Source: Aromatoleum anaerobium
Lineage (GTDB): Bacteria > Pseudomonadota > Gammaproteobacteria > Burkholderiales > Rhodocyclaceae
DNA length: 64,000 bases
Assembly: GCF_012910705.2 (NCBI RefSeq)
Contig: NZ_WTVG02000034.1
Span: forward strand, 1 to 64,000
Direction of reading: 5' to 3'
The notes below the pieces were generated by a model. It was given only the letters and a program-made list of their open reading frames with translations, ran no database searches and was not told the DNA's origin. The translations under genes and the position numbers were made by a program. Shown here piece by piece: positions 22,224-40,307 of this stretch (its first letter is position 1; the number at the start of each line of letters is the position of its first letter).

Positions 22224-23351
22224 ATGAAGGTGCTGATCACCGGGGCGAACGGCTTCGTCGGCAGGAACCTGCAGCTGCACCTGGCCGAGCGCAGGGACGT
22301 GGAGGTGGTGTGCTTCACGCGCGGGCAGGACGTGTCGGCGCTGCCCGCGCTGCTGCAGGGGGTGGACTTCGTGTTCCACTTGGCCGGGATCAACCGGCCG
22401 CAGGACCCGCACGAGTTCGTCACCGGCAATGTGGACCTGACGCAGGCGCTGTGCGAGGCGGTGTGCGCGGCCGCTGATTCCGGCGGCAAGCGGGTGCCGA
22501 TCGTCTATACGTCGTCGATCCAGGCCGCGCGCGACAATCCGTATGGCCAGAGCAAGCGCCGGGCGGAGGAAGCCTTGCTGGCTGCGGCGCGCAGCCACCG
22601 GCTGCCGGTGCATGTGTTCCGGCTGCCGAATGTGTTCGGCAAATGGTGCAGGCCGAATTACAACTCGGCGGTGGCGACGTTCTGCCACAACATCGCGCGC
22701 GACTTGCCGATCCACATCAACGACCCGGCCGCGCCGGTGACGCTGGTGTATGTGGATGACGTGATCGAGCGCTTCGTGCAGCTGATGGATGGCGCCGATG
22801 CCGCGGCGGATGCGGACGGGTTCGCGACCGTCGCGCCGCAGTACACGACGACCGTGGGCGAGCTGGCCCGGCTGATCCGGACTTTCCGGGACAGCCGCGA
22901 CACGCTGATGATCGAGCGCGTCGGCACCGGCCTGGTGCGCGCGCTGTATGCGACCTACGTGAGCTGCCTGCCGCCGGAAGCTTTCACCTACACCGTGCCG
23001 CAGCACGGCGATGCGCGCGGCGTGTTCGTCGAGATGCTGAAGACGCCCGATTGCGGCCAGTTCTCGTTCTTCACCGCGCACCCGGGCATCACCCGCGGCG
23101 GCCACTACCACCACACCAAGACCGAGAAGTTCCTGGTGATCAGGGGCGAGGCCCGCTTCAGGTTCCGCCACATGCAGACCGGCGAGACGCACGAACTGGT
23201 GACCCGCGGCGACAAGGCGGAGATCGTCGAGACGGTGCCGGGGTGGACGCACGACATCACCAACATCGGCAGCGACGAGATGGTGGTGATGCTGTGGGCG
23301 AACGAGGTTTTTGATCGGGCGCGGCCGGATACGTATGCTTGCCCACTGTAA
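22224..23351 (+). CDS. capF: CapF/WbjC/FnlB-type bifunctional reductase/epimerase with C-terminal cupin
   Basis: This 375-residue protein has an N-terminal short-chain dehydrogenase domain (GANGFVGRN at 7-15; Y107xxxK111). Its C-terminal cupin (~245-375) has the metal-binding GGHYHHTKTEKFLV. CapF epimerises and then reduces the CapE product using NADPH. It ends RPDTYACPL, an end reused in scar fragments at 40603-40635. It follows capE by 4 bases. The next biosynthetic step (capG) is separated by a two-gene insertion. Confidence 0.92.
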   Translation: MKVLITGANGFVGRNLQLHLAERRDVEVVCFTRGQDVSALPALLQGVDFVFHLAGINRPQDPHEFVTGNVDLTQALCEAVCAAADSGGKRVPIVYTSSIQAARDNPYGQSKRRAEEALLAAARSHRLPVHVFRLPNVFGKWCRPNYNSAVATFCHNIARDLPIHINDPAAPVTLVYVDDVIERFVQLMDGADAAADADGFATVAPQYTTTVGELARLIRTFRDSRDTLMIERVGTGLVRALYATYVSCLPPEAFTYTVPQHGDARGVFVEMLKTPDCGQFSFFTAHPGITRGGHYHHTKTEKFLVIRGEARFRFRHMQTGETHELVTRGDKAEIVETVPGWTHDITNIGSDEMVVMLWANEVFDRARPDTYACPL

Positions 23352-23375: not shown

Positions 23376-24665
23376 ATGCTGAAATCGCTGCACCTTGCCG
23401 GTGTCGGGCCCGCCCGGGAGTTCGGGCCGGTGGAGTTTGCTCCCCGGCTCAATTTCATTACGGGTGACAACGGCTTGGGCAAGAGCTTTCTGCTCGATGC
23501 TGCATGGTGGGTGTTGACCCGTACCTGGGCGCGTGGGGTGGAGGCGGTGCCGCAACGGGACGCTAAGCGCGCGAGCATTGCCTATGCGTACACGAAATCG
23601 ACCAAGGGTGATTTTGTCGAGGAAAGCGTTTTCAGCAGGGTTGATCAGGTCTGGCCGGTCAAGCAGGGACGGCCGCCGATTCCCGGGGTGGTGATCTACG
23701 CGGGTGTCGATGGCAGTTTTTCGGCGTGGGACCCGGCGCGTAATTACTGGAGCGACAAGGAGGCGCTGGCGGGGGAGCGGTTGAGGGCGTTCAACTTTAC
23801 GCCCGAACAGGTCTGGAAAGGGCTGCATGGGAAAGACGGCATTCGCCACTGCAACGGCCTGATCCATGACTGGGTGCTGTGGCAGAAGGGGGCCGACCCG
23901 GCTTTCGATGACCTGATCAAGGTGCTGGATGCGCTGTCGCCTTCCGGCAACGAAAAGCTGGTGCCGGGCAAGCCTGTCAGGCTCGGGCTGGATGTGACCG
24001 ATTACCCCTCGCTGCGTATGCCCTATGGGCAGGACGTCGCGCTGATTCACGCCTCGGCGGGCATGCGCCGTATCGCCGCCCTGGCCTATCTGCTGGTGTG
24101 GACCTGGCGTGAGCATCAATTGGCGTGCGAGCAGACCGGACGGAAGCCGGCCAGGGAGATCATCTTCCTGATTGATGAAATCGAGTGCCACCTGCACCCG
24201 CAGTGGCAGCGTCGCATTGTGCCGGCCCTGCTGAAGGTGATGCAGGCACTGACAGGCAGGAAGGTGCTGGTGCAGCTCATCGTGGCAACGCATTCGCCCC
24301 TGGTGTTGGCCTCGGCCGAGCCGTTGTTCGACGGTGAGGAGGATGCGGTATTTACCATTGGCCTGCGCGAAGGGCAGGCGGTGATCGTGCGTGAAACCTG
24401 GGCGAAGCAGGGGGATGTAGTCAACTGGCTGGTGTCGGATGCCTTCGGCCTGCAGCAGGCGCGCTCGGTGGAAGCAGAAGAGGCCATCGAGGCGGCTGAG
24501 GCCTGGATGCGGGGCGAGCGTGATCCGCTGCCGCCGCACCTGACCAACGAACGGACCATCCATAAGGCGCTGGAGCGTGCGCTGCCCGGCGGCGACCATT
24601 TCTGGCCGCGCTGGGTCGTTTGGGTGGAAAACCACCAGGTAGCCAAGAAGGATAAGCGTTCGTGA
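23376..24665 (+). CDS. AAA/ABC-like ATPase of a Septu-like ATPase-HNH pair (pair 1)
   Basis: This 429-residue P-loop ATPase has Walker A GDNGLGKS (30-37), Walker B FLIDEIECHLHP (D267/E268) and a switch-type VATHSP (H306). These match RecF/PtuA-like defence ATPases. The stop overlaps the next gene's GTG start (GTGA), and that gene has an HNH-like motif. It sits between capF and capG, which belong to the same pathway, so it is an insertion into a biosynthetic operon. The family is clear. Assignment to Septu rather than a related ATPase/HNH system is inference. Confidence 0.82.
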   Translation: MLKSLHLAGVGPAREFGPVEFAPRLNFITGDNGLGKSFLLDAAWWVLTRTWARGVEAVPQRDAKRASIAYAYTKSTKGDFVEESVFSRVDQVWPVKQGRPPIPGVVIYAGVDGSFSAWDPARNYWSDKEALAGERLRAFNFTPEQVWKGLHGKDGIRHCNGLIHDWVLWQKGADPAFDDLIKVLDALSPSGNEKLVPGKPVRLGLDVTDYPSLRMPYGQDVALIHASAGMRRIAALAYLLVWTWREHQLACEQTGRKPAREIIFLIDEIECHLHPQWQRRIVPALLKVMQALTGRKVLVQLIVATHSPLVLASAEPLFDGEEDAVFTIGLREGQAVIVRETWAKQGDVVNWLVSDAFGLQQARSVEAEEAIEAAEAWMRGERDPLPPHLTNERTIHKALERALPGGDHFWPRWVVWVENHQVAKKDKRS

Positions 24666-25243
24666 TTCCGGTGCCCAACCCCATCCCGGAACCTGCAGCT
24701 TTCGACGAACGGTGCCGTAAGAGAGGCCGGAAGTGGCTGGAGAAGAACCCGGGGGGCAAACGCCCGCCTGATTATTGGTCCGATTTTCGGCTGGATCTCG
24801 CCGCGAGCTTTCACGACCGCTGCGGTTACGGCGCGATGTGGATTTCCAGTGGAACGGTCGATCACTTCGTGAGCTGCGATGAAGACAGAACGCAGGCTTA
24901 TGAATGGTCGAACTACCGTTATCTGGATGGCTGGATCAACAGTTCGAAGAACAAGAAGCGGTCACGGGATTTCCTCGATCCCTTTGAAGTGGGTGATGGG
25001 TGGTTCGAGGTCGACCTGCCCTCTCTGCAACTGAAGCTGACCGATGCGGTACCGGACGCGTATCGGGCCCGCGCCGAGTACACCTTGCGCAATCTGCCGA
25101 TCCGGGATGACGAACGCCTGATCCGGCAGCGTCGTGCGTGGTACCAACTGTATGAGCAGGGCAAACTGACCCTCGATGGGCTTCGTGAGAGGGCGCCGCT
25201 GATTGCGACGGCCGTTGAGAAGAAGGTGGCTGCCAAGCCCTGA
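24662..25243 (+). CDS. HNH-like nuclease partner (pair 1)
   Basis: This 193-residue protein has a metal-finger-like pattern: CGYGAMW (C54), then GTVDHFVS with D67/H68, then YEWSNYRY with N84 and WINSSK with N93. This resembles the spaced H-N-H arrangement of PtuB/TIGR02646-type nucleases, although the N-terminal cysteines are reduced. It starts with GTG 24662 inside the ATPase stop. In ATPase-HNH systems the nuclease cuts nucleic acid after the ATPase senses infection. Pair 1 differs in sequence from pair 2 at 27757-29738. Confidence 0.65.
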   Translation: MIPVPNPIPEPAAFDERCRKRGRKWLEKNPGGKRPPDYWSDFRLDLAASFHDRCGYGAMWISSGTVDHFVSCDEDRTQAYEWSNYRYLDGWINSSKNKKRSRDFLDPFEVGDGWFEVDLPSLQLKLTDAVPDAYRARAEYTLRNLPIRDDERLIRQRRAWYQLYEQGKLTLDGLRERAPLIATAVEKKVAAKP

Positions 25244-25267: not shown

Positions 25268-26404
25268 ATGAAAAAACTAAAAGTCATGTCCGTGGTCGGC
25301 ACCCGGCCCGAGATCATCCGCCTGTCGCGCGTGCTGGCCGCGCTCGATCGGCATTGCGAGCACGTGCTGGTGCATACCGGCCAGAACTACGACTACGAGC
25401 TGAACCAGGTCTTCTTCGATGACCTGGGGGTGCGCAAGCCGGATCACTTCCTCAACAGCGCGGCCGGCAGCAGCGGGGCGGCGCACACGATCGGCAACCT
25501 CATCATCGGCGTGGACCAGGTGCTGGCCGAAGTCCTGCCCGAAGCGATGTTGGTGCTGGGCGACACGAACAGCTGCCTGGCGGTGATCCCGGCCAAGCGG
25601 CGCAAGATCCCGATCTTCCATATGGAAGCGGGCAACCGCTGCTTCGACCAGCGCGTGCCGGAAGAAACCAACCGCCGCATCGTCGACCACACCGCCGACA
25701 TCAACCTGACCTACAGCACGATCGCGCGCGACTACCTGCTGCGCGAAGGCCTGCCGCCGGACCAGGTGATCAAGACCGGCAGCCCGATGTTCGAGGTGCT
25801 GACGCACTACCGGCCGCGCATCGACGCGTCCGACGTGCTGCAGCGGCTGGAGCTGGAGGAGGGGCGCTACTTCGTTGTCAGCGCGCACCGCGAGGAAAAC
25901 ATCGAATCCGAGCGCGCGTTCACCAAGCTCGTGGCAGTGTTGAACGCGGTGGCCGAGGACCACGACCTGCCGGTGATCGTGTCGACCCATCCGCGCACGC
26001 AAAAGCGCGTCGATGCGACCGGCGCGAAGTTCCATCCGATGGTGCGGCTGCTGAAACCGCTGGGGTTTCACGACTATGTGAAGCTGCAGATGTCGGCCAA
26101 GGCCGTGCTGTCGGACAGCGGCACGATCAACGAGGAGTCGTCGATCCTGAACTTCCCGGCGCTGAACCTGCGCGAAGCGCACGAGCGGCCGGAAGGCATG
26201 GAAGAGGCGGCGGTGATGATGGTGGGGCTGGAAGTGGAGCGCGTGCGCCAGGGGCTGGCGATCCTCGGATCGCAATCCCGCGGCGAATTGCGCAGCCTGC
26301 GCCAGGTGGCCGACTACAGCATGCCGAACGTGTCGGACAAGGTCGTGCGCATCATTCACAGTTATACGGATTACGTGAATCGCGTGGTCTGGAAGAAGTA
26401 TTGA
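25268..26404 (+). CDS. capG: non-hydrolysing UDP-GlcNAc 2-epimerase-type enzyme completing UDP-L-FucNAc
   Basis: This 378-residue WecB-like epimerase begins [19 protein letters not shown] and contains [36 protein letters not shown] and [19 protein letters not shown], the standard motifs of the family. In the CapE-CapF-CapG pathway it converts the intermediate to UDP-L-FucNAc by C2 epimerisation. In an uninterrupted operon it would directly follow capF; here the ATPase/HNH pair 1 lies between them. It starts at ATG 25268, before a GT gene. Confidence 0.9.
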
Positions 26405-26408
26405 CAGA

Positions 26409-27638
26409 ATGGCTACCCGAGTTCTGCTGCTGACCCAGTGGTTCGATCCCGAGCCGACTTTCAAGGGCATTGTCTTTGCCCGGGAACTGGTGCGCCAAGG
26501 CTTCGAAGTCGAGGTCGTGACCGGCTTTCCGAACTATCCGGGCGGAAAGGTGTATCCGGGCTACCGGATAAAACACTTGCAGCGAGAGGAGATCGACGGC
26601 GTACACGTCACCCGCCTCCCTCTTTACCCAAGTCATGATCAAGGCGCTGTGGGGCGGGTCCTCAACTATGTCAGCTTCGGGGCTTCTTCGGCCTTGTATG
26701 GCTTGTTCGGTGCGAAGCGACCGGATGTGATCTATGCCTATCATCCCCCGTTGACGGTGGGCATTGCAGCAGTGTTGATTCGGCTGTTTCGTCGCGTTCC
26801 GGTCGTGTACGACATACAGGACATGTGGCCCGATACGCTGCGTGCGACGGGAATGTTCTCGAATCAACGCGCGTTGAAAGCCGTGTCGTGGGTTTGCGAC
26901 TGCGTTTATCGTCACGTCGACCGTCTGGTTGTGTTGTCACCGGGCTTCCGGCGTCTGCTGATCGAACGTGGCGTGCCAAAAGACAAGATCGACGTCATCT
27001 ACAACTGGTGCGCCGAAGATGCGATCGGGGTTCCAACCGGTGAAGTCCCTCCGGGATTTCCTGGCCCTCAGCACTTTCGTGTGCTCTTTGCCGGGAACAT
27101 GGGCAAGGCGCAGGCTCTCGACTCAGTGCTGGAGGCTGCGGCTTTGGTGCGCGACGTGGCGCCCACATTGCGCTTCGTGTTTCTTGGCGGCGGAGTCGAG
27201 GTAGCGCAGCTTCGACAGATTGCCAGCGATCGGCAATTGCACAATGTTGTCTTCCTGCCACCCGTGCCGATGGCAGAAGTAGGAAGCTATCTCGCGGCGG
27301 CGGATGCCCTGATGGTCCACCTGAAAAAAGACCCGCTTTTCAAAATCACAATTCCCTCGAAGACTCAGGCCTATATGGCGGCTGGCAAGCCGGTCCTGAT
27401 GGCAGTCGAGGGCGACGCAGCGGATTTGGTCAGAGAAAGCGGCTGCGGGCGGGTTTCTGATTCTGAAGATCCCCGCGCGATCGCCGATGCCGCCCTGACG
27501 CTGATGCGTGCGACATGCGAAGAGCGGGCCTTGATGGCTCGTAACGCTCGCCAGTTTTATCAGGAGAAGCTGTCCCTCAGTGTCGGCGTGAGCAGGTTCG
27601 CGTCGATTTTTCGAACCTTGGGCGCGCAGCAAGCGTAG
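26409..27638 (+). CDS. WbuB/WcaI-like GT4 glycosyltransferase, probably FucNAc transferase
   Basis: This 409-residue protein starts ATRVLLLTQWFDPEPTFKG and has FPNYPGGKVYPGYR, VYDIQDMWPDTLRATG and FKITIPSKTQAYMAAGKPVL, diagnostic of the WbuB/WcaI group. In several bacteria WbuB follows fnlABC and transfers L-FucNAc, and this gene lies 4 bases after capG. That specificity is inferred from neighbourhood. A damaged piece of a protein of this group occurs at 41420-41617. Confidence 0.85.
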   Translation: MATRVLLLTQWFDPEPTFKGIVFARELVRQGFEVEVVTGFPNYPGGKVYPGYRIKHLQREEIDGVHVTRLPLYPSHDQGAVGRVLNYVSFGASSALYGLFGAKRPDVIYAYHPPLTVGIAAVLIRLFRRVPVVYDIQDMWPDTLRATGMFSNQRALKAVSWVCDCVYRHVDRLVVLSPGFRRLLIERGVPKDKIDVIYNWCAEDAIGVPTGEVPPGFPGPQHFRVLFAGNMGKAQALDSVLEAAALVRDVAPTLRFVFLGGGVEVAQLRQIASDRQLHNVVFLPPVPMAEVGSYLAAADALMVHLKKDPLFKITIPSKTQAYMAAGKPVLMAVEGDAADLVRESGCGRVSDSEDPRAIADAALTLMRATCEERALMARNARQFYQEKLSLSVGVSRFASIFRTLGAQQA

Positions 27639-27756
27639 ATCTGGGCTTACAAACTCTTGGTATGACGTTCATCGGGTCAATACAGTGATGCTTGCTGAGA
27701 TGGGCATTCCCGAAAGCAGCCCTAAAATCCCCTCTCACATGATCGAGGGCTGAATC

Positions 27757-29055
27757 ATGCATATCGATACGCTTCGGGTAGAGAACTTCCGCTGCTTTAA
27801 GCAGGAGACGTTCGAGTTCCAGTCTGGATTCAACCTGCTTGTCGGTGTCAATGGCAGCGGCAAGACATCGCTGCTGAAGGCGATTGCAGCCGGGTTGGCA
27901 ACTCCGATCAACGGGTTGGGAAAAAGCCCACGTTGGCCGCATGCCGAGGAGGCGAACGCCCGCCTTGCCTTGATCGAACTGCAGGGGCGGGTTCGGTATG
28001 AGCGGTGTTACCCCGTGCGTATCGAGCTCGAAGGCGAAGTTTGCGGGTCTGCACGAAGTTGGTGGGTGGAACAACCCGGGCCGGCTAGCCAATCAAAATT
28101 CGAACACACGGTTTTTTCTGCAATCGCGGACGAGTCTGCCCGCATCGCTCAGGGAGGACAGGGCGCTTTGCCTCTAGCGGCGTTCTATGGAGCCGAACGG
28201 CAGTGGCGGCTGAGCGGGGTGGGCGCTGACACCGCCGTGCGGCATCAGGATTCGCGCCTGGATGCTTATGCCTCATGGTTCGATGCCGCCCTCGACATGA
28301 AAGGGCTCGAAACCTGGGTCATCGGCAAATCACTGGAACGCCTGGAAGCCGAATCGGACAGCCGCGATGTAGACAACGGCGGTGCGCTCGATGAGCTGGC
28401 GCTGGTCAACCGCGCCGTGGCGCTTGCGATACCGGGGGCGAAAGGCTTGCGGTACGACATCAAGTACCGGCGCTTGGTCCTGGAGTGGCAGGACGCCGAC
28501 CCCGTACCGTTCGAGACCCTGAGCGATGGCCAGCGCGCCTTGGCTGCACTGGTGGCCGACATCGCGCGACGCATGTGCCTGCTCAATCCCCAATTGGGGG
28601 CGCGTGTGCTGGACGAAACGCCTGGCGTGGTCCTGATCGACGAACTCGACATGCATTTGCATCCGGCGTGGCAACGCAGGGTCTGCGGCGTGCTGAAGAC
28701 TGCGTTTCCGTGCATCCAGTTCATCGCCGCCTCGCATTCGCCGCAGATCATCGGCGAGCTCGTGGCCGACGAAATCCTGCTGATGAAGGGCGGCCAGGTA
28801 GTGGGCCATCCAGAGCGGGCGCTGGGTTTGCCAAGCAGCGAAGTGCTTGCCGAGATCATGGGTACCGAACCGCAGAATACGGAGGTCGCGGCCGCACTGC
28901 GACGAATCCATCAGGCGCTGGACAACGAGCAACTCGACGTGGCCGAGCGGGAAATCGTGGCGCTGGAGTCGAAGGTCGGGGCGATTCCCGATGTGATCGA
29001 GGTGCGTAGTGAGCTCGACAGCCTGCGTTGGCTGGGCGAGGAGGACCAGCCTTGA
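27757..29055 (+). CDS. PtuA-like ATPase of a Septu-type defence pair (pair 2)
   Basis: This 432-residue ATPase has Walker A GVNGSGKT (30-37), LSDGQRALAALVADIARRM as signature region, VVLIDELDMHLHPAWQRR as Walker B, and FIAASHSPQIIGE with the switch His. It is followed by a TIGR02646-type HNH gene that begins within its stop codon. PtuA-PtuB (Septu) protects against phage, with PtuA binding ATP and assembling with the HNH nuclease. The pair lies between the WbuB-like gene and the aminotransferase gene, inside the polysaccharide operon and on the same strand. Confidence 0.85.
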   Translation: MHIDTLRVENFRCFKQETFEFQSGFNLLVGVNGSGKTSLLKAIAAGLATPINGLGKSPRWPHAEEANARLALIELQGRVRYERCYPVRIELEGEVCGSARSWWVEQPGPASQSKFEHTVFSAIADESARIAQGGQGALPLAAFYGAERQWRLSGVGADTAVRHQDSRLDAYASWFDAALDMKGLETWVIGKSLERLEAESDSRDVDNGGALDELALVNRAVALAIPGAKGLRYDIKYRRLVLEWQDADPVPFETLSDGQRALAALVADIARRMCLLNPQLGARVLDETPGVVLIDELDMHLHPAWQRRVCGVLKTAFPCIQFIAASHSPQIIGELVADEILLMKGGQVVGHPERALGLPSSEVLAEIMGTEPQNTEVAAALRRIHQALDNEQLDVAEREIVALESKVGAIPDVIEVRSELDSLRWLGEEDQP

Positions 29056-29738
29056 GATGCATCGTGAAAGGGCCGGAACCACGCGAGTTGCTGGATTGGA
29101 AGCGCCAGAATCGAGCAAGCCCGCAGAATCTGACCTACACGGGGGGCGGGTTTCCGCGTGAAGCGGTCAAGCATGCGTTGATGGTTGAACAGCATCATCT
29201 GTGCGCTTATACGATGCGCGGGCTGAAGTCTGCGGCCGATTGCCACATCGAGCATGTGTTGCCGCAGGCACGAAAAAACCCGGAAGAAACGATCGACTAC
29301 CACAATATGTTGGCCTGCTACCCAGGCAGCAACAGCAAGACGGTATGCGAGTTCGGCGCCCATGCAAAGGGCGACTACGACCCGGAACGGGGTCCGTTCT
29401 GTTCCCCATTGCACAAAGCGACACCTTCGAAGTTCAGATTCTCTGAGACGGGAGAGGTGACTGGTCGTGATGATGTGGCACAGGCAACGATCGAGGTGCT
29501 GCGGCTCAACCACCCGATCCTGGTCCATGACCGCGAAGCTGCCATTCGAGGCGGTTTGAAGCCGGGCAGACGACGGCAGTTCTCTGCAGCGGCTGCGCGG
29601 CGTCTGGCTGCCGAGGTCCGAAAGCCGGACTTCGAGGGGCGATTGCGGCCGTACTGCGAGGCGATTGCGCAGGCGGCGCTGAAGTATGCCGATAAGGAAG
29701 AGCGCAAAGCGCGCCGGCTACGTCAGCGCCGTGTTTAG
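29052..29738 (+). CDS. PtuB-like HNH endonuclease, TIGR02646 family (pair 2)
   Basis: This 228-residue protein begins MRCIVKGPEPRELLDWKRQ, the typical TIGR02646/PtuB N-terminus, read from TTG 29052 that overlaps the ATPase stop. The nuclease core is HHLCAYTM (C51), CHIEHVLPQ (H65, E67, H68) and DYHNMLACYP (N85). This is the HNH arrangement of PtuB, also found with retron Ec78. The C-terminus is Arg-rich. With the preceding ATPase it forms a probable two-gene Septu system. No reverse transcriptase or retron RNA was seen nearby. Confidence 0.85.
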   Translation: MRCIVKGPEPRELLDWKRQNRASPQNLTYTGGGFPREAVKHALMVEQHHLCAYTMRGLKSAADCHIEHVLPQARKNPEETIDYHNMLACYPGSNSKTVCEFGAHAKGDYDPERGPFCSPLHKATPSKFRFSETGEVTGRDDVAQATIEVLRLNHPILVHDREAAIRGGLKPGRRRQFSAAAARRLAAEVRKPDFEGRLRPYCEAIAQAALKYADKEERKARRLRQRRV

Positions 29739-29786
29739 CCTTCCCGAACCGAACCATCAGGAATCCAATAATCAACGCTTCTTGTC

Positions 29787-30965
29787 ATGACAGATAACGA
29801 TACCCACTTTGCCGCCCTCGTCGATTTGGTTGGCACCCTCTACGGCGGCGACCCGACGCCCTTGCATCGCCCCGTTTTCGAAGGCAACGAAAAGCAATAC
29901 CTGGTCGACTGCATCGACTCGAACTTCGTGTCCTCGGTGGGCGCGCGCGTGACCGAGTTCGAAGAGCGGATCGCCGGCTTCACCGGCGCACGGTTTGCGG
30001 TTGCCACGGTAAACGGCACGGCCGCGCTGCACGTCGCCCTGCAACTCGCCGGCGTGGAGCGGGGCGATGAGGTGATCAGCCAGGCGCTCACGTTCATCGC
30101 GACCTGCAATGCGCTCACATACGCCGGTGCCCGGCCGGTCTTTATCGACGTCGACCGGGACACCCTGGGCCTGAGTCCGCGGGCGCTGAGAACCTGGCTT
30201 GCGGCCAACGCTGTAATGCGTGACGGGCAGACCTTCAATCGGGCCACGGGCGCGCGGATCGCGGCATGTGTGCCGATGCACACGTTCGGCTTGCCTTGCC
30301 GCATCGAAGAGATCGTCGCGCTCTGTGACGAGTACGCGATACCCGTCGTGGAAGATGCCGCGGAATCGCTCGGTAGCTACGTCGGCGAACGGCATACGGG
30401 CACCTTCGGAAGGCTCGCGACGCTCAGCTTCAACGGCAACAAGATCATCACCACCGGCGGGGGCGGGATGATCGTCACCAACGATGAAGAACTGGCCAGG
30501 CGCGCCAAGCACTTGACCACGACGGCCAAGATTCCGCATCCCTACGAGTTCGAGCACGACGAAGTGGGCTACAACTACCGCCTGCCCAACGTCAATGCCG
30601 CGCTCGGCTGCGCGCAGATGGAAAAGCTGCCCGCAATGCTGACGATCAAGGCCGATGTGGCGCAGCGCTACGCGGCGTTTTGCGAACAGCATGGCCTCCG
30701 CTATGTCGGCGCGCCGCCGGGCACGCGGCCGAATTTCTGGCTGAACGCGGTCGTGCTCGACTCGCGAGCGGAACGTGATGCGCTCCTCGAATACACCAAC
30801 AGCCGGGGCGTCATGACGCGGCCGATCTGGCGTTTGATGTCTTCGTTGGAGATGTTCAAGGACTGCCAGCACGATGGGCTGGAAAACTCGCGCTGGCTCG
30901 AGGATCGCGTCGTGAATCTTCCTTCCAGCGTGCCTGAAAGCGAATTCTGGAGACTCCAGCAATGA
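29787..30965 (+). CDS. LegC/DegT-family PLP-dependent sugar aminotransferase
   Basis: This 392-residue aminotransferase of the DegT/DnrJ/EryC1 fold has VNGTAALHVALQLAG near the N-terminus, the PLP-site VVEDAAESLGS, and the Schiff-base lysine K219 in FNGNKIITTGGGG. The LegC branch installs the amino group at C4 of UDP-4-keto-6-deoxy-GlcNAc. The following gene, overlapping as ATGA, encodes the dehydratase that makes that keto sugar. The product would be a UDP-4-amino-4,6-dideoxy-GlcNAc (QuiNAc4N) type sugar. Catalytic specificity is inferred from pairing. Confidence 0.88.
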   Translation: MTDNDTHFAALVDLVGTLYGGDPTPLHRPVFEGNEKQYLVDCIDSNFVSSVGARVTEFEERIAGFTGARFAVATVNGTAALHVALQLAGVERGDEVISQALTFIATCNALTYAGARPVFIDVDRDTLGLSPRALRTWLAANAVMRDGQTFNRATGARIAACVPMHTFGLPCRIEEIVALCDEYAIPVVEDAAESLGSYVGERHTGTFGRLATLSFNGNKIITTGGGGMIVTNDEELARRAKHLTTTAKIPHPYEFEHDEVGYNYRLPNVNAALGCAQMEKLPAMLTIKADVAQRYAAFCEQHGLRYVGAPPGTRPNFWLNAVVLDSRAERDALLEYTNSRGVMTRPIWRLMSSLEMFKDCQHDGLENSRWLEDRVVNLPSSVPESEFWRLQQ

Positions 30966-32149
30966 ATGTGCTTCAACTGATCGGGCGCGAGCGCCTGTTG
31001 TTCGATACCGACCTCGCGCGCGAGGAAAAGCGCTTGACCGAGCTGGTGAAAGGCAGCCGCTTTCTGGTGATCGGCGGGGCGGGGTCGATTGGCCAGGCGG
31101 TCACGCGCGAGATCTTCAAGCGTGGGCCGCGCGTGCTGCATGTCGTCGACATCAGCGAGAACAACATGGTCGAGCTGGTGCGCGACATCCGCAGCACGCT
31201 CGGCTACATCGACGGCGACTTCCGCACTTTCGCAATCGACTGCGGCGGGCGTGAGTTCGACGCGCTGATGAACGCCGGGGACGGTTACGACTATGTGCTG
31301 AACCTGTCGGCACTCAAGCACGTGCGCAGCGAGAAGGACCCGTTCACGCTGATGCGCTTGATCGAGGTGAACGTGCTCAACACGATCGCGACCATCGCCC
31401 AGGCGCGTACCAAGGGGGCGCGCAAGTACTTTTGCGTGTCGACCGACAAGGCGGCCAACCCGGTGAACATGATGGGCGCGAGCAAGCGGATCATGGAGAT
31501 GTTCCTGATGCGCGAGAGTCTGAGCCTGCCGATTTCGACCGCGCGGTTTGCCAACGTCGCGTTTTCCGACGGTTCCTTGCTGCATGGCTTCAACCAGCGC
31601 TTTGCCAAGCGCCAGCCGATTTCGGCGCCGAACGACGTGCGCCGTTATTTCGTGACGCCGCAGGAGTCGGGCGAGCTGTGCCTGATGTCGTGCCTGCTCG
31701 GGGACAATCGCGACATCTTCTTCCCGAAGCTGAGCGAGGCGCTGCATCTGACGCGCTTTTCCGACATCGCGGTGCGCTACCTCGAATCGCTGGGTTACGA
31801 GCCGCATGAATGCGGCAGCGAGGACGAGGCGCGCGAACGCGGCGCGGAGCTGATCGCGAAGCGCAAGTGGCCGGTGTATTTCTTCGCCAGCGACACCACC
31901 GGCGAAAAGGGCTTCGAGGAGTTCTTTACCGAGCGCGAAACGCTGGACATGGCGCGTTTCGACACCGTCGGGGTGATCAAGAACGCGGCCGAGTTCGACG
32001 GCGCCCGTCTGGATCGATTCACTGCGCGCATTAACGAGATTCGCGCCCGGCCGACCTGGGACAAGGCGGAGATCGTCGCGCTCTTCAACGAGATGATCCC
32101 GGAGTTCGATCACAAGGAAACCGGCAAGTATCTGGACAACAGGATGTGA
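30962..32149 (+). CDS. UDP-GlcNAc 4,6-dehydratase, LegB-like
   Basis: This 395-residue short-chain dehydrogenase has NAD binding at GGAGSIGQ (38-45), LSALKHVRSEKDPFTL, and STDKAANPVNMMGASK with the MxxxK catalytic pair. It resembles the dehydratases that precede LegC-type aminotransferases in legionaminic acid and bacillosamine pathways. The start overlaps the aminotransferase stop (ATGA), so the two are translated together. Its C-terminal ~90 residues are longer than in capE-type enzymes. It is one of three 4,6-dehydratases in the cluster. Confidence 0.86.
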   Translation: MNVLQLIGRERLLFDTDLAREEKRLTELVKGSRFLVIGGAGSIGQAVTREIFKRGPRVLHVVDISENNMVELVRDIRSTLGYIDGDFRTFAIDCGGREFDALMNAGDGYDYVLNLSALKHVRSEKDPFTLMRLIEVNVLNTIATIAQARTKGARKYFCVSTDKAANPVNMMGASKRIMEMFLMRESLSLPISTARFANVAFSDGSLLHGFNQRFAKRQPISAPNDVRRYFVTPQESGELCLMSCLLGDNRDIFFPKLSEALHLTRFSDIAVRYLESLGYEPHECGSEDEARERGAELIAKRKWPVYFFASDTTGEKGFEEFFTERETLDMARFDTVGVIKNAAEFDGARLDRFTARINEIRARPTWDKAEIVALFNEMIPEFDHKETGKYLDNRM

Positions 32150-32150
32150 C

Positions 32151-32828
32151 ATGCAGCGAATTCTGGACATTCTTTTTTCGGGCCTGGCGTTGCTGGTGTT
32201 GTCGCCGCTTCTGGTGCCGGTGATGATCGCGCTGCGCCTGACCGGCGAGGGCGAGATCTTCTACGTGCAGCAGCGCGTCGGCCGTGGCGGCAAGTCGTTC
32301 GGCCTGTACAAGTTCGCGACGATGCTGAAGAACAGCCCCCACCTCGGCACCGGCACGGTCACGTTGAAGAACGACCCGCGCGTGCTGCCGCTGGGCAGTT
32401 TCCTGCGCAAGACGAAGATCAACGAGCTGCCGCAACTGCTCAACATCCTGTTCGGCGACATGAGCATCGTCGGCCCGCGACCGCAGACGCAACGCTGCTT
32501 CGATGCGTTTCCGCCGGCGTCGCAGGCACAGATCGTGAAGGTGCGGCCCGGGCTGTCGGGAATCGGCTCGATCGTCTTCAGGGGCGAGGAGGACATGCTG
32601 CACGCCAGCGCCGCGCCCGAGCGCTTCTACGATGAAGTGATCATGCCGTACAAGGGCAAGCTGGAAGAATGGTACGTGGCGAACCAGGGGCTGCGGACGT
32701 ATTTCGCATGTATTTTGGTGACGGTGTGGGTGGTGCTCTTTCCCTCGTCGCGCGTGGTGTGGAAAGCATTGCCAACGCTACCTAATCCTCCGCGAAATCT
32801 TGCAACCTCTATCCAATTCGAAAATTGA
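32151..32828 (+). CDS. PglC/WcaJ-type initiating phosphoglycosyl transferase
   Basis: This 225-residue monotopic membrane enzyme has an N-terminal re-entrant helix (LDILFSGLALLVLSPLLVP), VQQRVGRGGKSFGLYKF, then LRKTKINELPQLLNILFGDM and SIVGPRPQ. These are the marks of the bacterial sugar transferase family. It would transfer a sugar phosphate, likely QuiNAc4N-type, from UDP to undecaprenyl phosphate. The cluster thus has two candidate initiating enzymes, this one and the WecA-like protein at the left edge. It starts 1 base after the dehydratase stop. Confidence 0.9.
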   Translation: MQRILDILFSGLALLVLSPLLVPVMIALRLTGEGEIFYVQQRVGRGGKSFGLYKFATMLKNSPHLGTGTVTLKNDPRVLPLGSFLRKTKINELPQLLNILFGDMSIVGPRPQTQRCFDAFPPASQAQIVKVRPGLSGIGSIVFRGEEDMLHASAAPERFYDEVIMPYKGKLEEWYVANQGLRTYFACILVTVWVVLFPSSRVVWKALPTLPNPPRNLATSIQFEN

Positions 32829-32837
32829 GATGACATC

Positions 32838-33614
32838 ATGCAATTAATTTTTGATCATCGATTGATCCGACATATTATTGACGCGTCGGAAAAAGAGCAT
32901 GGGCGTTCATCGCATGCGCTACAGTTGGCGGAGAGGCTTTTGCAAAAATCGTTCGTGAAAGTGCCCTTGTGGCTTTTCGAGCGAGTTGTGGGATTTCTTT
33001 TGGCGCTGCCTATTCCCATTTACAGCTCGGCAGTGTACGGCCTTGTGACAAACATGCGCGGACTGCCTCATATGCTGGGTATGTACATCCGAGGATTGTA
33101 CTATCGGCAAAAACTCGGCTTGATGGAGCCAAACGTTTTTATTGATCAAGGTGTTTTCTTTGCATATCCGCAAGGGGTTGAGCTGAAAGAATTTAGCTAT
33201 ATCGACAAAAATGTGCTCGTGATGAGCAAGACAGCGAAGGTTGGCAGGCGTGTCCACATTGCGCCTCGTGTTTTTATCAGTGGTGGCGGTGATTTCGAAA
33301 TCGAAAACTACGCTTGCATCGCAACCAACTCAAATATCATCACCTCAACTGAGGTGCTTAAAGACGGCGCGCGATGTTCCGGGCCAATGGTAAGCGCTGA
33401 TCAACGGAAAGTTTTTCGGGGTAAGGTGCGGATCAAGAAAGATGCATTCATTGGAGCGAACGCGACCTTGTTGCCCGGGGTTACGATCGAACCGGGTACA
33501 GTAGTTGGGGCGGGGGTGACCGTGGCAAAATCGTCCGAGCCTTGGGGCATTTACGTAGGTGAGCGTGCTCAACGAGTAGGTACTCGTGAGTCGGTTCTTT
33601 GGCCCGATAACTGA
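32838..33614 (+). CDS. hexapeptide-repeat (LbH) acyltransferase
   Basis: This 258-residue protein has an N-terminal helical part (~1-90) and a left-handed beta-helix with imperfect hexapeptide repeats. These are visible as YIDKNVLVMSKTAKVGRRV, then IKKDAFIGANATLLPGVTIE and PGTVVGAGVTVAK. The terminal TVVGAGVTVAK coil is typical of LacA/CysE/WbbJ acetyltransferases. It probably O- or N-acetylates a sugar of the repeat unit. Codon use is less GC-rich than its neighbours, suggesting separate acquisition. Bases 33615-33869 hold no clear gene. Confidence 0.75.
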   Translation: MQLIFDHRLIRHIIDASEKEHGRSSHALQLAERLLQKSFVKVPLWLFERVVGFLLALPIPIYSSAVYGLVTNMRGLPHMLGMYIRGLYYRQKLGLMEPNVFIDQGVFFAYPQGVELKEFSYIDKNVLVMSKTAKVGRRVHIAPRVFISGGGDFEIENYACIATNSNIITSTEVLKDGARCSGPMVSADQRKVFRGKVRIKKDAFIGANATLLPGVTIEPGTVVGAGVTVAKSSEPWGIYVGERAQRVGTRESVLWPDN

Positions 33615-33869
33615 TACCTAGCTTTTCTTTGGCAGTGACGCTTTGTTTTGCGATGTAGATGGTGAAGGGAGAGCATTTCGTAGGCAGCCATTGAGGCAGT
33701 CGTTCGTGTGCCCACTCTGTTAGCATCACGGCCTTCGCAACTGCCGAGCCGGGGTAGTGTGTCATTGCTGCATGGATTGGGTGAGCTTGGGGCGCGCGCG
33801 CGCCGCATGCTGTCGAACGCATCGGGTCTCGTCGGGGCCGACGGTGCGGGCGGCGGTGGATCGGTTTTC

Positions 33870-35774
33870 ATGGGTCGTTGGTTCCAGCGCATGCGCTCGC
33901 GCGTGCTGGTGCTCGCCTACGACCTCGTCATGCTCGCGCTGGCGTGGGCGCTGGCGTATTGGACGCGCTTCAACCTGGCCCACGTACCTGCCGAATTCAT
34001 CGCCGAGGCCGGGCGGATGTTGCCGCTGGTGTTGCTGGTGGTGGGCTCGGTGTATTGGGGCTTCGGACTTTATCGCGGGGTGTGGCGCTTCGCGTCGCTG
34101 ACCGACCTGGCGAAGATCGTCCAGGCGGTGCTGATCGGCACCACGCTGCTGCTCGCCATCCTGTTCGTATTCAACCGCATGGCCTATGTGCCGCGGTCGC
34201 TGCCGATGCTGTTCGTGGTCTACCAGATCATGCTGCTGGCCGGCCCGCGCCTGATGTACCGCTGGGTGAAGGACCGGCGCATCGACCCCGGCACCGGTAA
34301 GCGCGTGTTGATCGTGGGCGCCGGGTCGGATGGCGAGATGCTGGTGCGGGATCTGTTGCAGGACCGCGACGCGGGCTACCTGCCCATCGCCTTCGTCGAT
34401 GATCACGACCGCCGCTTGGGACGAACCGTGCATGGCGTGCCGATTCGCGGCACCATCGACGAGCTGCCGCGGGTGGTGGATGTCTTCGGCATCGATCTGA
34501 TCCTGCTCGCCAGGCCGAACGCGACGGCAAGGCAGATGCAGCACATGGTCGATCTGTGCGAGGCCACCGGCAAGCCCTTCCGTACGGTGCCGCCGACCAA
34601 GGACCTGGTCGCCGGGCGGGTCGCGGCGGGGCAGTTGCGGCAGGTTTCGATCGAGGATTTGCTCGGGCGCGACCCGGTGTCGCTCGACTGGCCGGGGATC
34701 CGCCGCAGCCTGAGCGACCACGTGGTGCTGGTGAGCGGGGCTGGAGGTTCGATCGGTGCGGAGCTGTGCCGGCAACTGTGCCGATGCAATCCGCGCCTGC
34801 TGATTCTGATCGATCACAGCGAGTTCAACCTTTACAGCATCGAAACCGAGCTGCTGGAGCTGCCCGACGCGCCGCCGATCGTGCGCCATCTGCTCTCCGT
34901 GACCGATGTGATGGGTGTGCGGCAGGTGTTCGAGCGCTACCGGCCGCAGGTGGTGTTCCATGCCGCCGCGTACAAGCACGTGCCCTTGCTGGAAGACCAG
35001 GTGGAGGCGGCCGTGCGGAACAACGTGGTCGGCACGCAAGTGATGGCACAAGCGGCCGCGGCGTGCGCGTGCGAGCGCTTCGTGCTGATTTCCACCGACA
35101 AGGCGGTGAACCCGACCAGCGTGATGGGCGCGACCAAGCGGCTGGCCGAGCTGATCTGCCAGGCGCAGGACAGCCGCGCTGGCAGCCGCTTCATGACCGT
35201 GCGCTTCGGCAACGTGCTCGGCTCGGCCGGCAGCGTGGTGCCGCGTTTTCAGCGGCAGATCGAGCGCGGCGGCCCGGTGACGGTGACGCATCCGGACATC
35301 GAGCGCTTTTTCATGACGATTCCCGAAGCCTGCCAGTTGATCATGCAGGCGGCAGCGATCGGCGACGACGCGGATACCTTCGTGCTCGACATGGGCGAGC
35401 CGGTAAAGATCCGTTACCTGGCCGAGCAGATGATCCTGCTGTCCGGTCGCCAGCCGGGGCGCGACATCCGGATCGAATACATCGGGCTGCGCCCCGGCGA
35501 GAAGCTGTACGAGGATCTGTTCTACCCGGCGGAGATTTTCGCCGACACGCCCCACCCGCGCATCCACATCGCCCGCCAGACGCTGCCCGTCGACCGCAGG
35601 CAACTTGCATTTGCTCTGCAGGCGCTCCATGCCGCGCTGCAGGCGCGGGACCGTGATGGACTGGTGGCGGCATTGAAACACGCGGTTCCGGCGTGGGAAT
35701 GCAGCGGGGGTGAGGACTATTGCGCTTCAACAGGGCAACAAAGACATTCGGACGGGGAGTGTCTTGCAGGCTGA
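33870..35774 (+). CDS. WbpM/PglF-type membrane-bound UDP-HexNAc 4,6-dehydratase
   Basis: This ~634-residue protein has four N-terminal transmembrane helices (about 10-130), a first Rossmann-like CoA-binding-type domain with VLIVGAGSDGEMLVRDLL, and a catalytic SDR domain with GAGGSIG at 290-296. STDKAVNPTSVMGATK carries T409-D410-K411, M419 and K423. WbpM-like enzymes convert UDP-GlcNAc to UDP-4-keto-6-deoxy sugars. ATG 33870 is preferred because the membrane domain starts at once and GGTGGA precedes it; the longer frame from 33708 reads low-quality sequence. Pieces of this gene recur at 37422-37648 and 39381-39502. Confidence 0.9.
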   Translation: MGRWFQRMRSRVLVLAYDLVMLALAWALAYWTRFNLAHVPAEFIAEAGRMLPLVLLVVGSVYWGFGLYRGVWRFASLTDLAKIVQAVLIGTTLLLAILFVFNRMAYVPRSLPMLFVVYQIMLLAGPRLMYRWVKDRRIDPGTGKRVLIVGAGSDGEMLVRDLLQDRDAGYLPIAFVDDHDRRLGRTVHGVPIRGTIDELPRVVDVFGIDLILLARPNATARQMQHMVDLCEATGKPFRTVPPTKDLVAGRVAAGQLRQVSIEDLLGRDPVSLDWPGIRRSLSDHVVLVSGAGGSIGAELCRQLCRCNPRLLILIDHSEFNLYSIETELLELPDAPPIVRHLLSVTDVMGVRQVFERYRPQVVFHAAAYKHVPLLEDQVEAAVRNNVVGTQVMAQAAAACACERFVLISTDKAVNPTSVMGATKRLAELICQAQDSRAGSRFMTVRFGNVLGSAGSVVPRFQRQIERGGPVTVTHPDIERFFMTIPEACQLIMQAAAIGDDADTFVLDMGEPVKIRYLAEQMILLSGRQPGRDIRIEYIGLRPGEKLYEDLFYPAEIFADTPHPRIHIARQTLPVDRRQLAFALQALHAALQARDRDGLVAALKHAVPAWECSGGEDYCASTGQQRHSDGECLAG

Positions 35775-35778
35775 GCTG

Positions 35779-35900
35779 TACCCGGATGAACGCTCGTGCT
35801 TACCTGTTGGTTTTCTGGATGAGCGGGGCTATGCTGGGTGGCAACAGCGCCCAAACCTCTGATGCCAGCTCGTCCGGCATTATGTTTGGGCCTTCTTTTG
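35779..35900 (+). repeat. 122-bp sequence after the WbpM-like gene, repeated at 39499-39620
   Basis: This stretch, immediately downstream of the dehydratase stop, recurs at 39499-39620 with about three differences. It includes the start of an open frame from ATG 35786 to 36004 (72 residues, opening MNARAYLLVFWMSGAMLGGN), which has no recognisable family and no strong ribosome site. The frame may be a small gene or chance. The repeat helps define the mosaic region downstream. Confidence 0.8.
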
Positions 35901-36029
35901 TCGCTCTTGTGCGACGTTGCATGACAGTTTCAACTCGCGGAGGACCCCCGATGCTGCGCGCCATCGTGACAGAAGAACTCAGGCTGAGCGGGTCGAAAAT
36001 TTGAGAACAACATGAATGGAGCAGGCGCA

Positions 36030-36365
36030 ATGAGCACTTATCAGGAAATCCTCGCGCAGATCGAAGCGCTCAAGCAGCAGGCGGAAGAAATGCGGCAGGC
36101 CGAGATTGCCGGCGTGATCGCCGATATCCGGCAGAAGATCAGCGACTACAACCTGAGCGCGGCCGATCTTGGCTTCGGCGCGCCGGCGCGGGCCGAGAAA
36201 CCGGCGTCGGGCAAGCGCGGAACGGTCAAGGCGAAATACCGCAACCCGGCCACCGGCACGAGTTGGTCCGGCCGCGGCGTGATGCCGAAGTGGCTGAAAG
36301 CCGAGCTGGATGCGGGCAAGGCGAAGGAGGCGTTCCTGATTGCGGATGAAGGGGCGCAAGTGTGA
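36030..36365 (+). CDS. H-NS family nucleoid-associated protein
   Basis: This 111-residue protein has an N-terminal coiled-coil dimerisation part (EILAQIEALKQQAEEMRQAE) and a C-terminal DNA-binding motif KYRNPATGTSWSGRGVMPKW. That matches the betaproteobacterial H-NS consensus with the GRGxxPxW loop. H-NS proteins bind AT-rich DNA and silence horizontally acquired genes. It sits just beyond the cluster containing an AT-rich cassette, so local silencing is plausible but inferred. ATG 36030 follows GGAGCAGG; the upstream ATG 36012 is less likely. Confidence 0.9.
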   Translation: MSTYQEILAQIEALKQQAEEMRQAEIAGVIADIRQKISDYNLSAADLGFGAPARAEKPASGKRGTVKAKYRNPATGTSWSGRGVMPKWLKAELDAGKAKEAFLIADEGAQV

Positions 36366-36409
36366 TGAATCGCGTCTGCTTGCGCGCTGTGAGCGCTTGA
36401 CCTTTGCCA

Positions 36410-36453
36410 CTGTCTATATAAGAGAACTCACGAACAAGGAGATGCATGATGGC
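36410..36453 (+). repeat. 44-bp leader sequence repeated at 41611-41654
   Basis: The segment from CTGTCTATATAAGAGAA through the ribosome site ACAAGGAG to ATGGC recurs at 41611-41654 with seven differences. Here it is the promoter/leader of the DUF2281 gene (a TATATAAG box and AAGGAG at 36436-36441). At the second site no intact DUF2281 gene follows, showing an abandoned leader. Confidence 0.7.
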
Positions 36454-36676
36454 TACCATCACAGAGCGGTTGTTGGAAACCGCTCGTTCCCTGCCGGAGC
36501 CTCTGCTGGCCGAAGTGCTCGATTTCGCCGAGTTCTTGCGGGCCAGGCACGCCAGTCTCGAGGCTGAGACGGTGGATCACGATTTGCTCGACCTGTGCGG
36601 CGGGCTGGAGAATTCGACGACGTTCAGTGAGGCCCCCGACGTTATTCAGCAGCGGTTGCGCGATGAGTGGCGTTAA
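36449..36676 (+). CDS. DUF2281 antitoxin
   Basis: This 75-residue protein begins MATITERLLETARSLPEPL, then LAEVLDFAEFL, the conserved DUF2281 (VapB-like) opening. The rest is an acidic tail that would bind a PIN toxin. The start at ATG 36449 is 7 bases after AAGGAG; ATG 36446 is the alternative. The stop overlaps the next ATG by 14 bases, where a PIN toxin begins but is cut after ~21 codons. It is therefore an antitoxin without its own functional toxin. Confidence 0.78.
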   Translation: MATITERLLETARSLPEPLLAEVLDFAEFLRARHASLEAETVDHDLLDLCGGLENSTTFSEAPDVIQQRLRDEWR

Positions 36677-36728
36677 GTTCCTGCTGGATACCAACTTCAT
36701 CCTGGGGATGCTCAAGTCGTCGCCGATC
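36663..36728 (+). pseudogene. VapC PIN toxin reduced to its first ~21 codons
   Basis: The frame from ATG 36663 encodes MSGVKFLLDTNFILGMLKSS, a typical PIN-domain beginning with the first catalytic Asp in LLDTN. After this the PIN sequence stops. The frame continues without a break into the following ribbon-helix-helix gene, so a fusion polypeptide to 37004 is formally possible. No catalytic domain remains. The toxin's loss may explain why the upstream antitoxin survives alone. Confidence 0.75.
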
Positions 36729-36746
36729 GTCACGGAGGAAATCACA

Positions 36747-37004
36747 ATGAGCCGTATCACGATCACCCTGGAAGATTCACTCCATCGGGCGCTGAAGGAG
36801 ACAGCGGCACGTCAAGGGCGCTCGATCACGAAGATCATTGAGGAAAGCCTCGTTCTGCGGGGCATCAAGCCCGTGGAAAGTGCTCGGGAACTCGTCGCCC
36901 GGGCGCGCAGCCGGTCGACGTTGTCCGAGGGCGAGGCCACGGACCTGGCCAGGCCGGATGGGATTGGAGGTGAGGAACATGTTGTATCCCGTGTACGTGC
37001 ATAA
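36747..37004 (+). CDS. ribbon-helix-helix antitoxin, 3' end replaced
   Basis: The 85-residue product begins MSRITITLEDSLHRALKETA, a ribbon-helix-helix fold, and continues with the VapB-like ESARELVARARSRSTLSEGE tail. After about LARPD the sequence no longer fits and the frame runs into the next gene's leader, so the natural end is lost. ATG 36747 follows GGAGGAAATCAC, a good ribosome site. No toxin follows. A HicB-like gene overlaps its end by 26 bases. Confidence 0.72.
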   Translation: MSRITITLEDSLHRALKETAARQGRSITKIIEESLVLRGIKPVESARELVARARSRSTLSEGEATDLARPDGIGGEEHVVSRVRA

Positions 37005-37368
37005 GGACGAGGGCAGCGCCTACGGGCTGACCTTCCCGGATTTTCCGGGCTGCTTTTCCGCTGCGGACGAATTGGCTGACCTGCCGCGCATGGCGCAGGA
37101 GGCCGTGGAGGTGCATTTCGAGGGGGAGGACATGGCGATCCCGAAGCCGTCCGCCCCCGAGCAATGGGGCGATGATGAGCGCTTCCACGGCGGGTACTGG
37201 ATGCTGGTGGAAATCGACCTGGCGCGGGTGAGCGCAAAGCCCGTGCGGCTGAATATCTCGCTTCCGGAATACCTGGTGCGGCAGATCGACGCCTATGCCG
37301 CGTCCCATCATCAAAGCCGGTCGGGCTTTCTTGCCCGGGCGGCAGAAGAGGCGATGCGCGCGCGATAG
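36979..37368 (+). CDS. HicB-family antitoxin without a HicA partner
   Basis: This 129-residue protein has the HicB RNase H-like part YPVYVHKDEGSAYGLTFPDF, PGCFSAADELADL and EAVEVHFEGEDMAIP. A C-terminal ribbon-helix-helix DNA-binding part follows (VRLNISLPEYLVRQIDAYAA). GGAGGTGAGG precedes ATG 36979. HicA toxins (about 60-80 residues) normally lie directly next to hicB. None is seen on either side, where fragments of other genes lie instead. It may be a solitary regulator or a remnant. Confidence 0.83.
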   Translation: MLYPVYVHKDEGSAYGLTFPDFPGCFSAADELADLPRMAQEAVEVHFEGEDMAIPKPSAPEQWGDDERFHGGYWMLVEIDLARVSAKPVRLNISLPEYLVRQIDAYAASHHQSRSGFLARAAEEAMRAR

Positions 37369-37421
37369 CCAGTTCGTACCCCCATCGTAAACAGGGGGAT
37401 ACCCACTTTCTTTCGTTCTCG

Positions 37422-37648
37422 GATATCTTCGGCATCGATCTGGTTCTGCTCGCCAAGCCGAACGCCACGGCAAGGCAGATGCAGCACGTGGTCGATCTGT
37501 GCGAGGCCACCGGCAAGCCCTTCCGCACGGTGCCGCCGACCAAGGACCTGGTCGCCGGGCGGGTTGCGGCGGGGCAGTTGCGGCAGGTTTCGATCGAGGA
37601 TTTGCTCGGGCGCGATCCGGTGTCGCTGGATTGGGAGGCGATCCGCCC
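37422..37648 (+). pseudogene. internal fragment of the WbpM-like dehydratase gene (copy 1)
   Basis: The fragment matches 34479-34705 of the intact gene over about 227 bases at roughly nine identities in ten, covering the linker between its two Rossmann domains (IDLVLLAKPNATARQMQHVV and onward). The flanks are unrelated. Most differences are silent or conservative, so this piece diverged while still under selection, or came from a related gene. Bases 37649-37806 hold no recognisable gene. Confidence 0.88.
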
Positions 37649-37806
37649 CATGCGTCATCAACCGCATCGGTTCGACAAGCGTCTGCGCCACCAGAATCCG
37701 GTCGAACGGATCTTGGTGGTGTGCGGGCAGATCCTCGGGCGCCACAACAGGAGGCGCGCCGGGGCAGAACAGTAATGATGAAAGATCTGGCCCCGTTTGC
37801 TCATTT

Positions 37807-37830
37807 TAACCGTTATGATCATTATGGTTA
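37807..37830 (+). promoter_or_regulatory. palindromic operator of the Phd/PIN pair
   Basis: A 24-bp imperfect palindrome with half-sites TAACCGTTATGA and TCATTATGGTTA is symmetrical at 10 of 12 positions. It lies 15 bases before the Phd-type antitoxin ATG and close to AT-rich promoter-like DNA. Antitoxins of this family bind such sites to autorepress; the role is inferred from position and symmetry. Confidence 0.6.
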
Positions 37831-37845
37831 GAGAGGAGGGCGGCA

Positions 37846-38573: not shown

Positions 38574-38644
38574 GGTGGATTCAGCCGTCGCTCCGTTCGT
38601 GCAAGCCCTGTTCAAGGAACTCCCTGCCGCCATGTTGGGATATG

Positions 38645-39359: not shown

Positions 39360-39380
39360 TGGCACGATTGGCTGGCCGAT
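39360..39380 (+). pseudogene. 21-bp vanZ-like gene scrap
   Basis: These 21 bases are identical to 43588-43608 inside the intact VanZ-like gene (encoding WHDWLAD). They begin where the 715-bp repeat ends. In copy 2 the full vanZ-like gene follows the repeat, so copy 1 has lost ~250 bases from the start of that gene up to this point. Confidence 0.7.
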
Positions 39381-39620: not shown

Positions 39621-39630
39621 GGCGCGCGCG

Positions 39631-40302: not shown

Positions 40303-40307
40303 CGCCT

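Follow-up and report, generated by a model that had tools for sequence, protein, structure and literature searches.

The DNA analysed here, hereafter the window, is a stretch of 64,000 nucleotides from Aromatoleum anaerobium (assembly GCF_012910705.2, contig NZ_WTVG02000034.1, positions 1 to 64,000). Within a polysaccharide operon it carries two adjoining genes of the defence system Septu, both on the plus strand: ptuA (27757-29055), coding for an ABC-type ATPase of 432 amino acids (aa), and ptuB (29052-29738), coding for an HNH nuclease of 228 aa, whose TTG start overlaps the ptuA stop. These two genes are referred to as pair B, to tell them from a second and divergent pair (pair A) that lies upstream in the same operon.

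The ptuA product matched the PADLOC profile for PtuA, PDLC00277, with an E-value of 1.3e-167 over profile positions 1-423 of 423, and the Pfam domains AAA_21 and AAA_15 were found above cut-off. Its nearest relative among the solved sequences is the PtuA of Escherichia coli Septu (8ee4, E 4.1e-42). The motifs GVNGSGKT, LSDGQR, VVLIDELD and SHSPQ are visible in the alignment, the first three of which we take to be Walker A, signature and Walker B, respectively; the ATPase motifs are conserved among the aligned relatives, and the initial annotation of this DNA was right in crediting the ATPase with all nucleotide motifs.

For ptuB, the list of open reading frames (ORFs) gives a TTG start at 29028 (236 aa). 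Another TTG in the same frame, at 29052, forms a 4-base overlap with the end of ptuA (TTGA, 29052-29055) and gives 228 aa; it appears to be the likelier start because of this overlap and because the PADLOC match begins only at residue 10 of the longer form. The protein matched the PtuB profile PDLC00346 (E 1.4e-49, positions 2-212 of 214) and scored 58.9 bits against TIGR02646, the cut-off of which is 52.15. The hidden Markov model searches thus bore out both the clear TIGR02646 core and the PtuA/PtuB-like character that had been proposed for the pair. No match to PtuB was found in a Pfam scan; its best relative among the solved sequences is E. coli PtuB (8ee7, E 1.8e-6). All 10 of the PtuB sequences aligned have H68 and N85, and the alignment with the solved PtuB, together with the spacing of these residues, suggests that they correspond to H75 and N91 of the Septu system Ec-B88, both of which are required there (PMC13096335). 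Structure prediction, which for pair B was run on PtuB alone, gave a model whose fold resembles solved Septu PtuB. Profiles, motifs, the arrangement of the genes and the predicted fold of PtuB all speak for Septu type I, and pair B is a real, intact system of this type, one more case of a known system.

The operon around it reads, in order, fnlA- and fnlB-like genes, pair A, fnlC-like gene, glycosyltransferase, pair B, DegT aminotransferase, second CapD-like gene, sugar transferase, acetyltransferase-like gene and wbpM-type gene, where fnl, wbp and similar names are our presumptive labels. A Pfam scan that took in all the flanking genes except the acetyltransferase-like one classified every gene scanned around both pairs as a polysaccharide gene. 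The slot of pair A is bordered on the left by the fnlB-like gene (22224-23351, plus strand; epimerase and Polysacc_synt_C domains) and on the right by the fnlC-like gene (25268-26404, plus strand; UDP-GlcNAc 2-epimerase family, Epimerase_2 2.7e-92). Pair B is preceded by a GT4-type glycosyltransferase gene identified by Pfam (26409-27638, plus strand) and by the 3' remnant of another glycosyltransferase gene, GT-X (27661-27762, plus strand), while its right neighbour is degT (29787-30965, plus strand; DegT_DnrJ_EryC1 4.5e-83). The wbpM-type dehydratase gene, also identified by Pfam, follows at 33708-35774 on the plus strand.

The distribution of pair B was studied in 17 genomes of the genus, which include that of the window (G000) as well as G100, G137, G276, G300 and G301. 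Its ATPase is present in three of them, G000, G100 and G137, at 93-100% identity; G300 carries a 33% relative. The pair stands before degT in G000 and G100, and as a wreck in G137. The GT-X remnant of the window (102 bp, reaching to the ptuA start) is an 86% match to the 3' end of the GT-X gene of G137, where an intact GT-X lies directly before ptuA; the gene that now precedes the remnant, in G100 as in the window, codes for another glycosyltransferase. This gene shows no mismatch between the two genomes, and the whole tract that it forms with pair B (26402-29836) contains 2 differences in 3,435 bp, while the flanking fnlC and degT differ by 3.1%; a divergence of about 3.2% would predict some 110 differences across the tract. 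Because the tract is near-identical and its flanks are about 3% diverged, glycosyltransferase and pair B were probably transferred together, and recently, either between the window species and G100 or to both from a common source. The edges of the tract lie close to gene borders.

Two further genomes show other states of the same site. The pair B copy of G137 has suffered a deletion of 757 bp (measured between fixed points), bounded by two 7-bp repeats, and so lacks the end of ptuA and the greater part of ptuB. Since in retron Eco7 toxicity needs both PtuA and PtuB (PMC11555353), the G137 copy should by analogy be inert. In G276 the right half of the locus is present without pair B, and a 56-bp match (77%) to the final 32 bp of the glycosyltransferase gene in the window and the next 20 bp, found to the left of degT, may represent an empty site, although the match is very short. 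Separate searches returned best matches of 37% among plasmids (8 records at E 1e-30) and of 29%, over 98% of the query, among phages (4 records at E 1e-20), and on these values there is no sign of a phage or plasmid origin.

Pair A consists of a ptuA gene between fnlB and fnlC (23376-24665, plus strand; PDLC00307, 4.2e-187) and a ptuB-like gene (24662-25243, plus strand; PDLC00348, 4.9e-70), and ends 2,513 bp before ptuA of pair B. In BLASTP comparisons, the best stretch shared by the two ATPases covers 79 columns at 35% identity, and no significant match was obtained between the two nucleases. Judged by sequence, pair A is a different PtuA/PtuB branch, and the statement that two divergent pairs lie 2.5 kb apart in one polysaccharide cluster proved correct. 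The further statement that pair B is the better-matching of the two stood for TIGR02646, against which the pair A nuclease scores 13.2 bits (below cut-off), but pair A has strong PADLOC matches to profiles of its own. The pair A nuclease retains D67-H68 and N84 in all three aligned sequences; the predicted model of this protein is poor (mean predicted local distance difference test score, pLDDT, 58). The pair A ATPase occurs in two of the 17 genomes of the genus, G000 and G100. G100 also has a 63% relative of this ATPase in locus L058 (5781-13802), preceded by a PglX/type IIG-like methylase and followed by an AriA/AriB-like pair. This is a combined defence locus, and the position of the relative within it supports a defence role for the pair A branch.

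The place taken by pair A is usually empty. A fnlB match was found in 17 of the 399 genomes of the order that were searched, the window's included, and fnlC follows within about 40 bp in 16 of the 16 other fnlB genomes; the two genes are also neighbours in G301. In the window they are separated by pair A, and in G100 by an AbiD-type gene (L043, 4061-5071; Pfam Abi_2, PF07751, 1.6e-53; PADLOC AbiD, PDLC02344, 1.5e-53). Homology between the window and G100 stops 13 bp before the end of fnlB and restarts one base before the start of fnlC. The G100 copy of pair A lies instead downstream of wbpM, with a ptuB broken by a 238-bp deletion (measured between fixed points), and is flanked by about 40 bp of the end of fnlB and about 50 bp of the start of fnlC. 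Because it carries these scars, pair A would once have stood between fnlB and fnlC in the G100 lineage, or would have come from a lineage in which it did. Two further fnlC-start scars were found in G100, one of which follows a nucleotidyltransferase/HepT-like pair (weak Pfam matches, HepT below cut-off). The other, the third fnlC scar of this genome (at 35182 of the joined stretch), comes after an IstB gene of the IS21 type, and not all such scars can therefore be regarded as former defence slots.

Some irregularities of the fnl genes were recorded as well. Locus L057 of G100 (4175-6217) contains a fnlC fragment interrupted by about 1.7 kb, the two halves of which overlap by 5 bases (window 25447-25451), a pattern as expected of an insertion sequence; the longest ORF of the interruption had no Pfam match. 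In locus L158 of genome G588, about 780 bp (721-1501) separate fnlA from fnlB, which are adjacent in most other fnlB loci, and L170, another of the 16 fnlB loci, has a fnlB gene divided between two reading frames.

The initial annotation proposed polysaccharide loci as a preferred niche of such systems. This was examined with a panel of 17 window proteins (phmmer, E 1e-6), by which distant sugar genes are missed, on stretches of at most about 21 kb from one order and one list of relatives. Of the 399 genomes of the order, 29 had a TIGR02646 match, giving 32 loci. At least two panel matches were found around 1 of these 32 loci, 1 of 33 PtuA relatives and 1 of 32 control stretches, and at least one match in two cases in each of the three sets. 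The panel recovered 3 of 3 known clusters used as positive controls, all close relatives of the window; the control stretches were hand-picked, not random, 32 of the 40 places chosen being available, and a modest enrichment could escape so narrow a panel. Among the TIGR02646 loci, five (L106, L111, L112, L119 and L120) have no PtuA panel match and four (L094, L101, L104 and L108) end at contig ends, while several of the PtuA relatives sit on short contigs.

In the opposite direction, the same narrow panel with AbiD added gave no PtuA, PtuB or AbiD match in 33 other wbpM or fnlB loci. These comprise 16 fnlB loci of the order and 17 wbpM places of the genus, the latter from 13 genomes, with the second wbpM copies of G000, G100, G137 and G276 added. 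Seven of the 17 wbpM places have no panel match besides wbpM and four have weak fnlB-like ones only, so that some may not be polysaccharide clusters; L196, L198, L201, L204 and L224 are incomplete. With no enrichment over controls and no match in the 33 other loci by this narrow panel, a general Septu niche in polysaccharide loci is not supported. Sister species do carry such pairs in their loci, and a weaker, local version can be retained for the genus, namely that the locus is a local defence slot, occupied at fnlB-fnlC in G000 and G100 and before degT in three genomes. Among the papers listed by searches on Septu, on O-antigen and capsule loci and on defence hotspots, none deals with defence genes in such slots, to judge by titles and the openings of abstracts.

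The reading that we favour, with a probability of about 0.78, is that a complete Septu type I system entered the polysaccharide operon as a passenger and probably owes its expression to that operon, its placement reflecting modular shuffling of the surface-antigen locus. The basis of this reading is the presence of intact genes with catalytic residues, the stop/start overlap, the strand shared with the sugar genes, the lack of a reverse transcriptase on the contig and the spread within one tract. By analogy with solved and tested relatives, PtuA would assemble with PtuB and restrain it, and PtuA-PtuB complexes of relatives are known from solved structures. Septu is controlled by the ATP level. 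Infection would free the PtuB nuclease, which would cut nucleic acid, either phage DNA or host transfer RNA (tRNA), and so halt the phage; complex formation, trigger and target of the window pair are all extrapolated from relatives. As strand and spacing suggest, pair B would be co-expressed with the sugar genes. Defence genes, Septu twice and AbiD once, would thus have been caught in the shuffling surface-antigen locus of this genus, which would not be a general Septu habitat. As to the tested systems, immunity by Ec-B88 depends on both enzyme activities, and this Septu cuts tRNA-Tyr in the variable loop (PMC13096335); nicked DNA is the reported substrate of the E. coli Septu of ATCC 25922 (as cited in PMC11555353).

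Several observations weigh against this interpretation. The nearest solved PtuB is just 20-25% identical to that of pair B, and the NCBI equivalog models NF041760 and NF041761 (PtuA and PtuB of retron Ec78) were missed, PtuA scoring 202.2 bits where 500 are required and PtuB 76.6 where 150 are required. Tested PtuAB systems differ in whether they cut DNA or tRNA (PMC11555353), and the sequence does not tell which of the two pair B would attack. G137 kept the locus though most of pair B is gone. The window and G100 also diverge unevenly outside the tract, and within 31517-33266 some 250-base stretches show 0-2 differences; with regard to uniformity, no other stretch as long matches 26402-29836. 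Finally, the single promoter-like match stops 28 bp short of ptuA, and since shuffles of the 9 kb scanned yield two such matches on average, neither a promoter of ptuA itself nor co-transcription is established.

Among the alternatives, the one that survives best is that pair B is a functionless passenger, kept by the transferred polysaccharide segment and heading for decay. Decay does occur in the genus, as exemplified by the deletion between repeats in the pair B of G137 and by the broken ptuB in the pair A of G100. However, pair B is intact in the window and in G100, motifs included, the ratio of nonsynonymous to synonymous substitution rates (dN/dS) relative to G137 is 0.13, and its PtuA is still 65% identical to that of a Limnohabitans strain, with open frames; we therefore consider this explanation unlikely. 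Much less probable is a role of the ATPase/HNH pair in the polysaccharide locus itself, such as the promotion of its recombination or of allele exchange. The mosaic structure of the locus, whose junctions around both pairs fall at gene edges, and the cutting of nicked DNA reported for E. coli Septu would agree with such a role, but no match to such a pair turned up in the 33 other wbpM or fnlB loci, polysaccharide genes are seldom seen close to Septu relatives, and in G276 the locus was rearranged without any pair. The least credible alternative, an effector of a type I-A retron whose reverse transcriptase was lost or lies elsewhere, can draw on the PtuA/PtuB families common to retrons and Septu, on the description of TIGR02646 as a retron-system HNH and on retron PtuB structures ranking beside Septu in a structure search with the PtuB model, but was rejected because the six RVT_1 matches of the genome lie on contigs C13, C24 and C37 and none on the window contig (C39), because no Rfam RNA reached the gathering score in 20000-46000, and because of the missed equivalog cut-offs, the 432-aa PtuA also being nearer to Septu PtuA (465) than to retron PtuA (mostly 542-552).

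On the reading of pair B as a passenger Septu system, the defence is ordinary; its placement and movement are less so. What stands out is that pair B seems to have moved recently in company with a glycosyltransferase gene, and that a sugar-operon slot holds one defence gene in place of another, both within two to three species of one genus. A broader proposal, which we advance tentatively and with more doubt than confidence, is that the surface-antigen operon of the genus is an exchange unit coupling receptor change with internal immunity, in which defence modules (Septu, AbiD, perhaps the nucleotidyltransferase/HepT-like pair) would occupy gene-edge slots such as fnlB-fnlC and be swapped between species together with glycosyltransferases. 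If so, a single recombination event would change the phage receptor along with the set of defence genes. If the arrangement were general, swapping of phage-receptor genes would be physically linked to intracellular immunity, and defence surveys should include polysaccharide loci. The surveys gave no sign of such generality for Septu, and this is a local case for now.

Other genes of the window lie on both sides of the operon. Upstream of the polysaccharide cluster, a gene at 4358-5914 gives a nearly full-length match to the PADLOC candidate PDC-S24 (2.5e-177; SoFic weaker), and close to it an AAA ATPase gene (2567-3730) has matches to AbiLi and HEC-01A (about 1e-25). Downstream of wbpM come toxin-antitoxin-like genes and wbpM fragments: the region 35780-45300 is an array of HicB-like, Phd-like and PIN-domain genes, an H-NS-like gene and a gene for an AAA-ATPase/PD-(D/E)XK protein, with wbpM fragments mixed in at 37421-37647 and 39381-39502, and contains a 719-bp duplication at 99.9% identity (38642-39359 and 42620-43338). 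An ATPase gene at 45400-46578 matches the PADLOC candidate PDC-S01 (2.4e-100).

Compared with known systems, pair B has its closest named relative in Limnohabitans sp. 2KL-1 (L011), with 65% identity for PtuA, 53% for PtuB and the same gene order; unlike pair B, the Limnohabitans pair has no polysaccharide-panel match within 10 kb. Type I-A retrons (Ec78/Eco7, Ec83) share with pair B the two protein families and the PtuB fold, but differ from it in that pair B has no reverse transcriptase on its contig and no Rfam RNA in the region searched, has a shorter PtuA and misses the retron equivalog cut-offs. The type I Septu systems of E. coli (8ee4, 8ee7, 8eea, Ec-B88) are distant in sequence in both proteins (PtuB 20-25%), and pair B differs from the tested systems in sitting within a polysaccharide operon. 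The AbiD (Abi_2) gene of G100 belongs to an unrelated, one-gene abortive-infection family, and occupies the very fnlB-fnlC position that in the window is held by the Septu genes of pair A.
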